From NCBI GenBank assembly GCA_963169255.1, contig CAUJEJ010000141.1:1-34449 (forward strand): a DNA stretch of 34,449 nt. The letters run 5' to 3'. Shown here one piece after another: positions 11,026 through 16,028 of this stretch. The DNA comes from Actinomycetota bacterium (GTDB taxonomy: Bacteria > Actinomycetota > Actinomycetes > S36-B12 > UBA10799). The notes beneath the pieces were generated by a model, which was not told where the DNA came from, did not search any database, and saw only the letters and a list, made by a program, of their open reading frames with translations. Position 1 is the stretch's first letter. Each line of letters opens with the position of its first letter. A program made the position numbers and the translations under genes.

Positions 11026-11961
11026 ATGGCGCGTAAGAACCCCCCTGCCCCGTTTGACGGGCTGGTCATCGTTGATAAGCCGCAGGAATGGACCTCCCAC
11101 GACGTTGTCGGCAAACTCCGTCGGCTCATTGGTGCCCGCCGAGTAGGGCACGGGGGGACCCTTGATCCGATGGCTACAGGAGTACTCATTTGTGGGGTTG
11201 GTCGAGCGACGAAGTTGCTTGGCATGGTTGCCGCGAGCGATAAGACCTACGAAGCAACCATCCGTCTCGGTGTTTCAACCACGACGGATGACGCACAAGG
11301 TGAGGTCATCAAGGTCCAGGACGCGATGCAACTGGGCGGTGCAGGAATGGCGGCAATCGAGAGCGGGATAGCTGGGTTGTCCGGGCAGATCATGCAGCGG
11401 CCTAGCTCAGTGAGCGCGATCAAGATCGATGGCCAACGAGCCTACAAACGTGTCCGTGACGGCGAGGATGTTGTTCTCGAAGCGCGCCCGGTCACAGTGA
11501 GCGAGTTCGCGGTGCTGGCCGATCGCACGGTTGAAACTGATGAGTACGGCGCCCCGACGGCTGTTCTCGACCTCGACGTTCGCGTGACCTGTTCAACGGG
11601 CACGTACATTCGCGCACTCGCTCGCGATCTCGGTGATGCCCTTGGGGTTGGTGGGCACCTCACGATGCTGCGCCGCACTCGGATCGGGCAGTACTCCCTG
11701 GACTCTGCGCACACCCTCGATGAATTAGCTGAAGCAATGACCGAGATTCCCCTCGATGTCGTGTGTCGAGAGTTGTTCGTGTCATGGGAACTGAACGCAG
11801 AGCAGTCCTCGATCTACTCGCACGGAGGGCGGCTCGATTGGCCGCTGCAGTTGCCCGTGGACGCTGAGCTTGCCGTGTTTGATCCCGCGGGTCGCTTGTT
11901 GGGCCTTGCGGCTCAGAAAGACGGACGGCTGGCGCCGACCGTCGTGTGGGAACCTGCCTGA
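11026..11961 (+). CDS. truB: tRNA pseudouridine(55) synthase TruB
   Basis: Converts U55 of the T-loop of tRNAs to pseudouridine. The 311-aa protein carries the catalytic motif GHGGTLDPMATGVL with the nucleophilic Asp at residue 47, the N-terminal DGLVIVDKPQEWTSHDVV strand, the SAIKIDGQRAYKRVRDGE loop, and VTCSTGTYIRALARDLG, all typical. The actinobacterial C-terminal PUA-like extension is present. ATG 11026 lies 11 bases after the nrnA stop and has no clear Shine-Dalgarno sequence, so translation probably depends on coupling to nrnA. It is the last gene of this block; in relatives ribF normally lies close by, but here the AbiE pair and an MMPL gene intervene. Confidence 0.96.
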   Translation: MARKNPPAPFDGLVIVDKPQEWTSHDVVGKLRRLIGARRVGHGGTLDPMATGVLICGVGRATKLLGMVAASDKTYEATIRLGVSTTTDDAQGEVIKVQDAMQLGGAGMAAIESGIAGLSGQIMQRPSSVSAIKIDGQRAYKRVRDGEDVVLEARPVTVSEFAVLADRTVETDEYGAPTAVLDLDVRVTCSTGTYIRALARDLGDALGVGGHLTMLRRTRIGQYSLDSAHTLDELAEAMTEIPLDVVCRELFVSWELNAEQSSIYSHGGRLDWPLQLPVDAELAVFDPAGRLLGLAAQKDGRLAPTVVWEPA

Positions 11962-11983
11962 ACCTTCTCAGCGGAGATGGAAG

Positions 11984-11999
11984 CCCTCAATTACGAGGG
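11984..11999 (+). terminator. Weak hairpin after truB
   Basis: CCCTC and GAGGG form a five-base stem with a 6-base loop (AATTAC), 22 bases after the truB stop. No T-tract follows. It may be a weak terminator or have no function. Confidence 0.3.
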
Positions 12000-12064
12000 G
12001 AGCAACGCCGACCTGATCTATATCTATTGTCCACAGATCTGAGCATTACTGAGCGTAACAGGTA

Positions 12065-12096
12065 GCCAAAACCGTACATATTCTGTACGGTTTTGG
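12065..12096. promoter_or_regulatory. Perfect 14-bp inverted repeat, probable AbiEi autoregulatory operator
   Basis: GCCAAAACCGTACA (12065-12078) and its exact complement TGTACGGTTTTGGC (12083+1 to 12096) flank a 5-base spacer, TATTC. The repeat ends one base before the ATG at 12098. AbiEi antitoxins are known to repress their own operon by binding inverted repeats in the promoter, so this is the obvious operator. TANNNT boxes lie within it (TATTCT in the spacer, TACGGT in the right arm); the second would start transcription at or next to the ATG, giving a leaderless mRNA. There is no T-tract, which argues against a truB terminator. Confidence 0.8.
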
Positions 12097-12097
12097 C

Positions 12098-12664
12098 ATG
12101 ACTCGTTTCATGCAGATCGCAGAGCTTGCCGCCGGTCAGCATGGTGTCATCACTACGACCGACGTGGCAGCAGCCGGAATCGACACCGCTGCCTTGCGCG
12201 CACTGGCGCGGACAGGCGCAGTGATCAGGCTCGCGTCGGGCTTGTATCGCGTACCTCTCATCGAGACGACACGGCTTACGCCGTTCATGGAGGCAGTGCT
12301 GTGGACTCGGCGCAATGGGGTTGTCTCCCACGCTTCGGGTCTGACGATAAGGGGATATGGCGACTTCGCCGAGTCGCACATCGACCTAACCCTCCCTCGC
12401 AATGTCCGCCTCCGGAAGTCCGGGCCGACCTACTACCGACTCTGGCATGAAGATCTCGCGCACGACGAGATCGTGATCTACGAGGGTATTCCTGTGACGA
12501 CAGTGTTGAAGTCAATCAAGGACGCGAAGCTTGCCGGAGCAGACCCGCAGCAGCTACGGCTCGCGGCGCGGCAAGCGTTCCAAGCGGGCGAGCTAAATCC
12601 AGCGCAGGACCGAGCAGCCCGGCGGCTGCTGCAATCTGGTGCAAAGACGCGGAACGCATCATGA
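12098..12664 (+). CDS. AbiEi/MenA-type antitoxin and transcriptional regulator
   Basis: Antitoxin of an AbiE-type (type IV or related) toxin-antitoxin system. The 188-aa product starts with the AbiEi winged-helix domain: QIAELAAGQHGVITTTDVAAAGIDTAALRALARTGAVIRLASGLYRV, where the GLYRV strand is typical. A C-terminal domain (about 60-185) corresponds to the part that, in characterised members, antagonises the toxin. ATG 12098 directly follows a 14-bp palindrome and lacks a Shine-Dalgarno sequence, consistent with leaderless translation; ATG 12110 is an in-frame alternative. The stop overlaps the toxin start by four bases (ATGA), the usual organisation. Its location inside an otherwise conserved housekeeping gene order suggests acquisition by transfer, though no integrase or flanking repeat is seen. 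Confidence 0.85.
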   Translation: MTRFMQIAELAAGQHGVITTTDVAAAGIDTAALRALARTGAVIRLASGLYRVPLIETTRLTPFMEAVLWTRRNGVVSHASGLTIRGYGDFAESHIDLTLPRNVRLRKSGPTYYRLWHEDLAHDEIVIYEGIPVTTVLKSIKDAKLAGADPQQLRLAARQAFQAGELNPAQDRAARRLLQSGAKTRNAS

Positions 12665-13581
12665 GTAAGGCGGAGAAGTCTGTCCCGCCACCTACCAACG
12701 TGCGATCGCTCAAGGCCAGAATAGAGAACCTCGCGCGCAGACACGGGATCGCACCAAACCTTCTGCACCATCAACTCGCCTCGTACGTTGTTACGGAGAT
12801 GCTGCAGCGGTCAAGAGCAACGACCGGCGAGGGTCTATTTCTGATCAAGGGTGGCACGGCAATTCAAATGCGCCTCGGATTGTCGGCCAGCCGTTTCAGC
12901 AAGGATCTGGATGCAGTATTCCGGGGGAGTGTTGACGACATAGTTGGCGCAGCCCGTGCGGCACTCGCGGAAGACTGGCATGGATTCACGGCCAAGCCTG
13001 CGCGGCCGAAACCGATCAATGTCCCCGGCATGCCGACAAAGCCAATGCGCTTCGATGTGCAGCTGGACTATCGAAATCAATCCTTCGCAAAAGTTCCGGT
13101 CGAGGTCTCAATTGCCGAAGCTGAATCGGCCCGCACATCCGACGAGATTGCTCCAGCGGCGTTCGCAACAATCGGAATGGAAGCGCTCGGACTGCCCGAC
13201 GTGGGCGTGGCAAGCCTAATGTCGTTGGAGTATCAGATCGCGCAGAAACTACATGCGTGCACCGATCCCGGCGAACCGCCGAGAGATAACGAACGCGCAC
13301 ATGACGTTGTTGATTTGCTTCTACTTCTGCCATTGCTCGACGAGTCGGCGTACGCGGCGACAAGGCATGCGTGTGTCGAGATCTTCACGAACAGAGGGCG
13401 CCAGAACTGGCCGCCGCAAGTTCGCACATATCCCGACTGGTCACGGCTTTACCGAGTGGCCGTCTCGGACATACTCGAACCACCTGAGCTTCCCGAAACC
13501 ATCCATGACGCCATCGCGCTACTCCAGTACTACATCGAGCAATTGGAGGCGCGAGGCCGTGGAGTCCGGCTTAGTGACTAG
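12661..13581 (+). CDS. AbiEii/MenT-family nucleotidyltransferase toxin
   Basis: Toxin of the AbiE/MenAT family: a DNA polymerase beta-like nucleotidyltransferase; mycobacterial MenT members add nucleotides to tRNA acceptor ends and block translation. The 306-aa protein has LIKGGTAIQMRLG (K63-G64-G65-T66) followed by RFSKDLD, giving the G-G-T...D-x-D catalytic motif with D82 and D84. The later EYQIAQKLHA and RAHDVVDLLLL motifs (conserved Glu, Lys and Asp) are also present. All key residues are intact, so the toxin is expected to be active. It overlaps the antitoxin by four bases. Downstream it converges on an MMPL gene with a 42-bp gap holding a small hairpin. The nucleotide used and the RNA target cannot be inferred. 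Confidence 0.87.
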   Translation: MSKAEKSVPPPTNVRSLKARIENLARRHGIAPNLLHHQLASYVVTEMLQRSRATTGEGLFLIKGGTAIQMRLGLSASRFSKDLDAVFRGSVDDIVGAARAALAEDWHGFTAKPARPKPINVPGMPTKPMRFDVQLDYRNQSFAKVPVEVSIAEAESARTSDEIAPAAFATIGMEALGLPDVGVASLMSLEYQIAQKLHACTDPGEPPRDNERAHDVVDLLLLLPLLDESAYAATRHACVEIFTNRGRQNWPPQVRTYPDWSRLYRVAVSDILEPPELPETIHDAIALLQYYIEQLEARGRGVRLSD

Positions 13582-13585
13582 CTGG

Positions 13586-13600
13586 ACTTCCCACGGAAGT
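13586..13600. terminator. Small bidirectional hairpin between toxin and MMPL genes
   Basis: ACTTCC and GGAAGT form a perfect 6-bp stem with a CAC loop in the 42-bp convergent gap, extendable by two G-U pairs and followed by TT on the plus strand. It could end both transcripts weakly. Confidence 0.4.
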
Positions 13601-13623
13601 TTGAAACGGCGTATCGACACCCG

Positions 13624-15867
13624 CTACACCGAACTCTTGGCAGGTTCCTCCGGCGTTGGACCACCGGTCGGGGGAGTGCTCGGAGGGCCTTCGACGCTCA
13701 CCTTCGGCAAGATCTTGCCGAGCCACCCGGGCACGTACCAATTCGCTTTGCCGAACATGGTCATGAGCGCGGGGACCAATGCCAGTCGGACGACAAACGC
13801 GTCGAGCGCGATTGCCACGGCAAGCGAGAGGCCGAAGAGCTTGATCGTGGTGTTGGACTGGAACACAAACGAGATGAACACGCAGAACATGATCAGCGCA
13901 GCAGCAACAACAACTTGTCCTGAGCTGCCGAGCCCGACCCGCACCGCCAGGCGGTTGTCTTGATGGTGCTCCCATTCCTCCTGCATTCGACTCACGATGA
14001 AGACCTGGTAATCCATCGACAAGCCGAACAGAATCGCAAAGAGCATCACCGGTAGGAACGGCAGGATTGGGCCTGCCTCGGCAATGCCGAACACGGATGA
14101 GAAATTGCCCCACTGGAACACGAAGACCGATACCCCAAGTGCGGCGCCGTAGCTCAGCAGCGACGTAAGGACCGCAGTCAGCGGCACGAGTAGCGAGCGG
14201 AACAAGACCATCAGCACGAGGAAGCCCAAGACCACGACGATCAACAGGAACGACGGGAGCTTCTCGCGCAATACGGTGCTGAAGTCCGCGGCAGTCGCCG
14301 TGGCTCCGCCCACGTATGCCGAGATCCCCGTGCCGTTGAGTGCTTGCGGGATCGTCTGGTCGCGCAGGGTGTTGAGCAGGGCGGTCGTCGCTGCGTCTTG
14401 CGGACCCGATGTTGACACCACCGTGATCAACACAGTCTTGCCGTCGGCACTGATGAGTTTGGACCCGGCAGTGACCGGCGATGCGATCGAGACGCCTGGT
14501 GCGTTCGCGATGTCCTTGGCGAGGGCTTGCACCTTCGGTAGGTCAGCGGCGTCGGGCATCTGCGCCACCACGATGAACGGTCCGTTCGCACCGGAGCCGA
14601 ACGCCGTTGACGTCAAGTCGTATGCAATGCGTTGGGTGTCACCTTGTGGATTTGCGCCTGCGTCCGGGAACCCTTCGCGCAGGGATGAGGCCGGTGCAGC
14701 CAAGATTCCCATGAAGATCAACGCAACGATGGTGACCAACCAACGCTTGTTCTCGATGAAGACCGCGTACGAGCGGAACCGACGCCCGCGGTCCGCCTTT
14801 GGTGGCTTGCGTGCCCATGGCATCTTCCCGGCGAACACCTTCGGTCCGAGCAGCGAGATCATCGCCGGGAGCAAGGTGACGGCTGTGATCATGACGGCGA
14901 TGACGGTGACTGCGGCGCCGACTGCAAGCCCGTTGAGGAAGCTCAATCCGAGGACGAACAGCCCCGACAGCGCGATGATCACCGTCAGTGCGGCGAACAC
15001 GATCGCGCGCCCGGCTGTGCCGACCGCAATTAGTGCGGCTTCTTTGTGTTCCACGCCGTCGAGAATCGCTTGGCGGTATCGGTTGAGTAGGAACAGCGAA
15101 TAGTCGAATCCGACTCCGAGGCCGATCATGGTCGCCAGGCTCGGCGCGAAGCTCGCGGTATCAACGAAGTTGGCCGAAATCGCTAGCAGCGAGAGTCCGA
15201 CTCCGAGGCCGATGAGCGCGGTGAGTAGTGGTAGGCCCGCAGCAACAATCGCTCCGAACATGATCAGCATGATGATGATCGCGGCGAGAATGCCAACGAT
15301 TTCGCTAATCGGTGGCTCGCTGGAAGCCGATGCGATCACGTTTCCAGTTGCGCCGGCAGTGAATAGGCCTTGGTTGTTGAGCTGCTCGACGGCAGCGATC
15401 AGTGCCTGGGCGTCAGCCTTCGGTACTTCAGCATCAGGCACCTTGAACTGGACGTTGATTTTGCCGATGGTTCCGGTGACGTTCGTGAGTCCCAACCCCA
15501 GCGCATCGAGTGGGTTTGCGTAGTCATACGGAGACTGCACACTCGCAACTGATCCGATTGCTTCGATCTGCTTCGTCATCTGCTCAACCGCGGTCTTCTC
15601 CGCTGGGTCAGCGAGCAGCTTGTTGCCGGAGGTGAACAGCACCTGCACCGACGCGTTATTCGTGGTGTCACCGAAGTTCTGAACGAGGAGCTCTTGGGCC
15701 TTCGTTGAGCCGGTATTCGGCAGGCTGAACGAATCGTTGTACTGCCCGGCGTGAGTTGCAACTCCAACGCCAACTGCGACCAAAAGGACGATCCAGGCGA
15801 TGATTGCCTGCCAGGGACGATTGACCGCCCAACGTGAAACCGGACCCATGGAAGTCGCTCCGCTCAT
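13624..15867 (-). CDS. MMPL/RND-family transporter
   Basis: Large integral membrane exporter of the MMPL branch of the RND superfamily; characterised actinobacterial members export lipids or hydrophobic compounds using the proton gradient. The 747-aa product has the twelve-helix duplicated layout: one helix near the N-terminus (PWQAIIAWIVLLVAVGVGVA), a large extracytoplasmic loop, five helices, then the same pattern again. The duplicated helix-4 motifs are GVGFDYSLFLLNRYRQ and GLSMDYQVFIVSRMQEEW, with the Asp-Tyr pairs expected in the proton path. The frame is open to 15987, but ATG 15867 (MSGATSMGPVSRWAVNRPW) is the best start; ATG 15849 is possible. A palindrome enclosing a TATCGT box lies 15-33 bases upstream. 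It is divergent from ribF and convergent with the AbiE toxin. Substrate unknown. Confidence 0.9.
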   Translation of the reverse strand: MSGATSMGPVSRWAVNRPWQAIIAWIVLLVAVGVGVATHAGQYNDSFSLPNTGSTKAQELLVQNFGDTTNNASVQVLFTSGNKLLADPAEKTAVEQMTKQIEAIGSVASVQSPYDYANPLDALGLGLTNVTGTIGKINVQFKVPDAEVPKADAQALIAAVEQLNNQGLFTAGATGNVIASASSEPPISEIVGILAAIIIMLIMFGAIVAAGLPLLTALIGLGVGLSLLAISANFVDTASFAPSLATMIGLGVGFDYSLFLLNRYRQAILDGVEHKEAALIAVGTAGRAIVFAALTVIIALSGLFVLGLSFLNGLAVGAAVTVIAVMITAVTLLPAMISLLGPKVFAGKMPWARKPPKADRGRRFRSYAVFIENKRWLVTIVALIFMGILAAPASSLREGFPDAGANPQGDTQRIAYDLTSTAFGSGANGPFIVVAQMPDAADLPKVQALAKDIANAPGVSIASPVTAGSKLISADGKTVLITVVSTSGPQDAATTALLNTLRDQTIPQALNGTGISAYVGGATATAADFSTVLREKLPSFLLIVVVLGFLVLMVLFRSLLVPLTAVLTSLLSYGAALGVSVFVFQWGNFSSVFGIAEAGPILPFLPVMLFAILFGLSMDYQVFIVSRMQEEWEHHQDNRLAVRVGLGSSGQVVVAAALIMFCVFISFVFQSNTTIKLFGLSLAVAIALDAFVVRLALVPALMTMFGKANWYVPGWLGKILPKVSVEGPPSTPPTGGPTPEEPAKSSV

Positions 15868-15881
15868 CAGTCGCACTACGT

Positions 15882-15900
15882 GTGCCCGACGATAGGGCAC
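15882..15900 (-). promoter_or_regulatory. Inverted repeat enclosing a -10 box of the MMPL gene
   Basis: On the minus strand, GTGCCC-TATCGTC-GGGCAC is a perfect 6-bp inverted repeat whose spacer contains TATCGT, a TANNNT -10 candidate, 22 bases before the MMPL ATG. A repressor binding here would block the promoter. No regulator gene is adjacent. Confidence 0.45.
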
Positions 15901-16028
15901 CAGGGCTAGCGAAGGGGGTTTGCAGACTCCAGCGACCGACCGCGACGAGCACTGGTCGCACTGGTCCAGCCACAGGATTCGAGGCAAAGCGACTCCGGTA
16001 CCTGCAAGGTGGCAGGATCACTGCCGTG

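Follow-up and report, generated by a model that had tools for sequence, protein, structure and literature searches.

The window, a stretch of 34,449 nucleotides from an Actinomycetota bacterium (contig CAUJEJ010000141.1), carries an abiE gene pair together with an MMPL transporter gene between truB (11026-11961) and ribF (Table 1). The product of the first gene of the pair matched the AbiEi_4 family PF13338 (E 8e-14, 51.8 bits with a cut-off of 25), which identifies it as a winged helix-turn-helix antitoxin, and the PADLOC AbiEi model (9e-45). The second gene, with which it overlaps by 4 nt (ATGA), encodes the toxin of the same operon, matching AbiEii PF08843 (E 4e-17, 63.3 bits, cut-off 22.5); its closest solved relatives are the structures of Mycobacterium tuberculosis Rv1045/MenT3 (E about 5e-58). 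An AlphaFold model of AbiEi, built from four sequences and of low confidence in its C-terminal half, places a winged helix at residues 1-53 (block pLDDT 82-89), and the best PDB match of the predicted fold was the AbiEi of Streptococcus agalactiae, 6y8q. No further AbiEii was found in the genome. By homology and predicted fold the locus is a genuine and ordinary AbiE toxin-antitoxin pair, as the first-pass annotation had recognized for the antitoxin gene.

Table 1. Features of the abiE locus, in positions of the window.
Feature	Position	Strand	Basis
Left dyad arm, GCCAAAACCGTACA	12065..12078		Exact reverse complement of 12084-12097; arms covary in relatives
Central spacer of the dyad, TATTC (centre 12081)	12079..12083		Sequence read
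Right dyad arm, TGTACGGTTTTGGC, abutting the start codon	12084..12097		Sequence read
Predicted -10 box TACGGT (TAnnnT), 6 nt before the ATG	12086..12091	+	Conserved position in relatives
abiEi, antitoxin / autorepressor (P0001), 188 aa, ATG start	12098..12664	+	PF13338, PADLOC, fold match, start conserved in alignment
abiEii, nucleotidyltransferase toxin (P0002), 306 aa	12661..13581	+	PF08843, Rv1045/MenT3 structures
MMPL transporter gene	13624..15987	-	Between truB and ribF with abiE

The abiEi gene is headed by a perfect inverted repeat, GCCAAAACCGTACA-TATTC-TGTACGGTTTTGGC (12065-12097), in which all 14 bp of the arms are matched around a 5-bp spacer. Such a palindrome had been described in the first-pass annotation, along with TANNNT boxes inside it and the lack of a Shine-Dalgarno sequence, and each of these points held, except that one base had been placed between repeat and start codon where there is none. 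In addition to TACGGT, a second TAnnnT box, TATTCT (12079-12084), lies inside the repeat 13 nt before the ATG, and no Shine-Dalgarno sequence was present in the 18 nt upstream of the start. The palindrome occurred once in the 2.78-Mb genome by pattern search; allowing up to 3 mismatches, no second match was found elsewhere in the window, and 100 shuffles gave none. A scan for the sigma-70 consensus found no promoter with a -35 match, a result that is not decisive since many actinobacterial promoters are without a -35 consensus (PMC3898074). Because the palindrome is perfect, TACGGT is found also on the minus strand of 12065-12097, and from this leftward-facing box antisense transcription in the direction of truB could begin near 12064; among relatives TAnnnT is retained preferentially in the right arm.

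In a genome of the same genus (G001) ribF comes immediately after truB, both abiE and the MMPL gene being absent, and the stretch 11961-16026 of the window thus amounts to about 4 kb of extra sequence. The half-site of the palindrome was absent behind truB in G001 and in the short stretch downstream of truB in G002. Since G001 lacks both abiE and the half-site, the palindrome is not part of a truB-ribF junction of the G001 type but goes with abiE. Its location 103 nt past the truB stop codon would suit a palindrome that serves another function, as the operator of an unrelated regulator or as the terminator of truB, and that precedes abiEi by chance. We regard this as highly improbable in view of the single copy in the genome, the absence of the half-site behind truB in G001 and in the G002 stretch, and the dyads that precede abiEi at the matching position elsewhere in the class, in many contexts unlike this one. 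The terminator version was rejected: no run of T follows the palindrome, and no terminator was called there.

AbiEi relatives were gathered from the order, the class and plasmids, and the upstream sequence could be read for 64 AbiEi genes, the window included. No AbiEi relative was found in the viral contigs searched, and one scan of genome contigs returned only three distant relatives. Five AbiEi loci (L019, L110, L091, L046 and L041) have one in-frame stop inside the matched span, which may reflect a broken gene or a stop at the gene end. Start codons of the relatives were assigned by rule, as ATG or GTG only, and a dyad was considered significant at p<=0.02 relative to dinucleotide shuffles. 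Gene counts overstate independence because homologues share ancestry and operator sequence, and the 22 lineages, taken at less than 60% identity, are the fairer figure.

A significant dyad was present in 38 of the 64 genes, and in 22 of these 38, the window included, its centre lies 17-18.5 nt before the start codon. Relative to the dyad centre, TAnnnT was concentrated at +5.0/+5.5, with 29 counts among the 38 dyad genes and 5 at the next commonest offset, and the +5 box was present in 17 of the 22 lineages. Measured from the start codon in 61 genes, a TAnnnT box ended 6 nt (22 counts) or 7 nt (17 counts) upstream in 39 cases, while any other single gap was seen 0-7 times; a smaller peak at 18-19 nt belongs largely to genes with a Shine-Dalgarno sequence. 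These positions also bear on the choice between the two boxes. If TATTCT acted as the -10 element, transcription would start near 12091 and leave a 7-nt leader without a Shine-Dalgarno sequence, the role of the operator being the same. TATTCT is nearer to TATAAT than TACGGT is, but the relatives do not conserve a box at its position, about -2 relative to the dyad centre, as they do at +5, and its use as the -10 element is very unlikely.

The same design is built from different sequences upstream of the abiEi genes of the relatives, such as TGTGCGTAAACGTATC-TATTT-GATACGTTTGAGCAC-ATG in L012, CTCAAAACTATACC-GAAAGT-GGTATAGTTTTGAG-C-ATG in L002, GGCAGAACCGTACCG-AAAA-CGGTACGGTTCTGCC-ATG in L004 and gttatacttttgcc-ATG in the abiE locus of an M. 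branderi plasmid (L117), where the annotated start agrees. The two arms matched at 0.783 within operators and at 0.494 when left and right arms were taken from different operators, a difference not reached in any of 2000 permutations (0/2000 at 0.783), and they covary with several compensated base-pair types per position. Across homologous loci, where the first-pass annotation had proposed an alignment of the palindrome as a check, the dyad travels with abiEi genes. That annotation had also called the exactness of the repeat and its distance to the ATG unusual, which does not hold: abutment on the start codon is common among relatives and near-perfect repeats of equal or greater length occur in L004, L103, L111 and L038. 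In L004, L045, L103 and L113 the dyad runs into the start codon (CATGGC...GCCATG in L004), so that the first codon lies within the symmetric sequence.

Where TAnnnT is found in one arm only, it is always the right one, in 6:0 lineages (sign test p 0.016) and 16:0 of all genes. The right arm is thus constrained beyond symmetric recognition, an asymmetry that is predicted if a -10 element resides there and that symmetric recognition by a protein does not predict by itself. A second way of accounting for the palindrome is as an RNA hairpin: the operon would be transcribed from upstream, for example by transcription continuing from truB, and translation would be controlled by the 14-bp stem formed in the mRNA just before the AUG. 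The RNA indeed folds strongly (-31.4 kcal/mol, z -3.3, with 0/200 shuffles as good), yet RNA pairing alone does not demand a TAnnnT kept preferentially in the right arm. A transcript that starts from the right-arm box, located 6-7 nt before the start codon in the relatives, would furthermore exclude the stem, and where relatives have a Shine-Dalgarno sequence, their leader starts past the dyad and the mRNA again lacks the stem. There is, in our judgement, little chance that the palindrome works as an RNA hairpin.

What has been published on AbiEi proteins, together with the geometry described above, best supports autorepression: the palindrome is very probably the autoregulatory operator of abiE, placed across the promoter of a leaderless transcript. 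The repeat overlaps a predicted promoter marked by the conserved -10-like box, and since most relatives have no Shine-Dalgarno sequence and carry this box within the right arm, 6-7 nt ahead of the start codon, as TACGGT is at 6 nt here, transcription is predicted to start at the ATG. RNA polymerase would take TACGGT as the -10 element and start at the A of the ATG or next to it, and an mRNA beginning with its start codon would not need a Shine-Dalgarno sequence. The N-terminal winged helix of AbiEi would bind the two mirror-image half-sites, presumably with one monomer on each, so that -10 element and start point are both covered and transcription of abiEi-abiEii is turned off; when free AbiEi drops, the operon would be transcribed again. 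The leaderless transcript and the operator over the promoter, both put forward in the first-pass annotation, thereby gain support from the box conserved in the relatives, and binding of AbiEi to inverted repeats with repression of its own operon is published (PMC3985639, PMC7319586, PMC7205606). Switch-like control, also proposed there, cannot be inferred because the cooperativity of binding is positive for S. agalactiae AbiEi and negative for Rv2827c (PMC7319586).

In a minority of relatives the dyad is followed by a Shine-Dalgarno leader or by a longer stretch up to the start (L016, L017, L018, L020, L022, L038, L040, L041, L044, L092, L104, L108, L111 and L122, with leader classes labelled by hand). 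The Shine-Dalgarno relatives have mostly kept the dyad and the right-arm -10 box, and only the distance to the start is longer. On a quick tree, whose details are unsure owing to long branches that include the AbiEi of the window, the leader label changed 8 times by parsimony, fewer than in shuffles, and at least 4 changes were forced by strongly supported branches. Two strong tandem dyads, both of the GGCAGAAC/GTTCTGCC type, precede abiEi on the minus strand in L016, at about -127 to -90 and -75 to -28. A second operator class is hinted at by a different AbiEi branch (L024, L025, L030 and L097), whose repeats are of the AACTAAA type and have their centres further upstream; in L030 and L097 the dyad centre lies 53-54 nt ahead of the assigned start.

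Comparison with characterized systems places the locus among known AbiE operons in composition and apart from them in its predicted promoter. The abiE locus of S. agalactiae, in which AbiEi represses its own operon through inverted repeats, is likewise a bicistronic operon with a 4-nt overlap, a winged helix-turn-helix antitoxin and an inverted repeat over the promoter (PMC3985639). Its repeat is however of the form 11 bp-N27-11 bp, in 23-bp half-sites 3 bp apart, and its mapped start lies 26 bp before the ATG and leaves a 26-nt leader with a ribosome binding site (PMC3985639); upstream of abiEi in the window there is neither such a pair of half-sites, nor a predicted start at 26 bp, nor a ribosome binding site, but a 14-N5-14 repeat whose right arm carries the predicted -10 box and abuts the ATG of a predicted leaderless transcript. 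Rv2827c-Rv2826c of M. tuberculosis similarly has an antitoxin of the AbiEi family and inverted repeats over an autorepressed promoter; there, four repeats of 23 bp occupy the region from -1 to -131 as two pairs, with 13 bp inside each pair (PMC7319586), in contrast to the one compact dyad found here. From both of these layouts the predicted abiE promoter of the window is different.

The third comparison is with Rv1044-Rv1045 of M. tuberculosis (MenAT3; TakA-TglT), which supplies the closest solved relative of the toxin. Rv1044 represses its own promoter in M. smegmatis (PMC7205606), whereas in vitro it did not bind the 131 bp that precede its annotated start, and the region ahead of rv1044 yielded no inverted repeat (PMC7319586), in contrast to the perfect dyad of the window. 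In Cortes 2013 (PMC3898074), leaderless mRNA is reported as predominant for toxin-antitoxin pairs of M. tuberculosis (32/37) and TANNNT -10 boxes as having their centres 7-12 bp ahead of the start site; leaderless toxin-antitoxin transcripts are experimental there and predicted here. No paper joining AbiEi operators with leaderless starts was found in the literature searched, and the only AbiE-centred paper with both words has "leaderless" solely in its reference list.

AbiE and MenAT are widespread toxin-antitoxin pairs that act in phage defence and, in M. tuberculosis, include toxins targeting tRNA. To our knowledge, it is established for only a few of these antitoxins how they recognize the promoters of their own operons. 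We see about even chances that in the AbiEi antitoxins of Actinomycetes operator and promoter are fused into one module. In it, the -10 box (+5 nt) and mostly also the start codon (+17 to +18 nt) would keep fixed distances from the dyad centre, with the start codon inside the dyad in some lineages, and leaderless and Shine-Dalgarno initiation would be exchanged by changing only the sequence after the dyad. Such a module may also account for the operator missing so far at Rv1044. A fixed geometry of dyad, -10 box and ATG gives a simple rule for locating operators and for correcting start codons, and the relatives constitute a natural series on the swapping of leaderless and leadered translation under one operator. 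The rule is general in this branch and bears on the operator of Rv1044, making the conflict between its repression in vivo and the lack of an operator in vitro directly testable.
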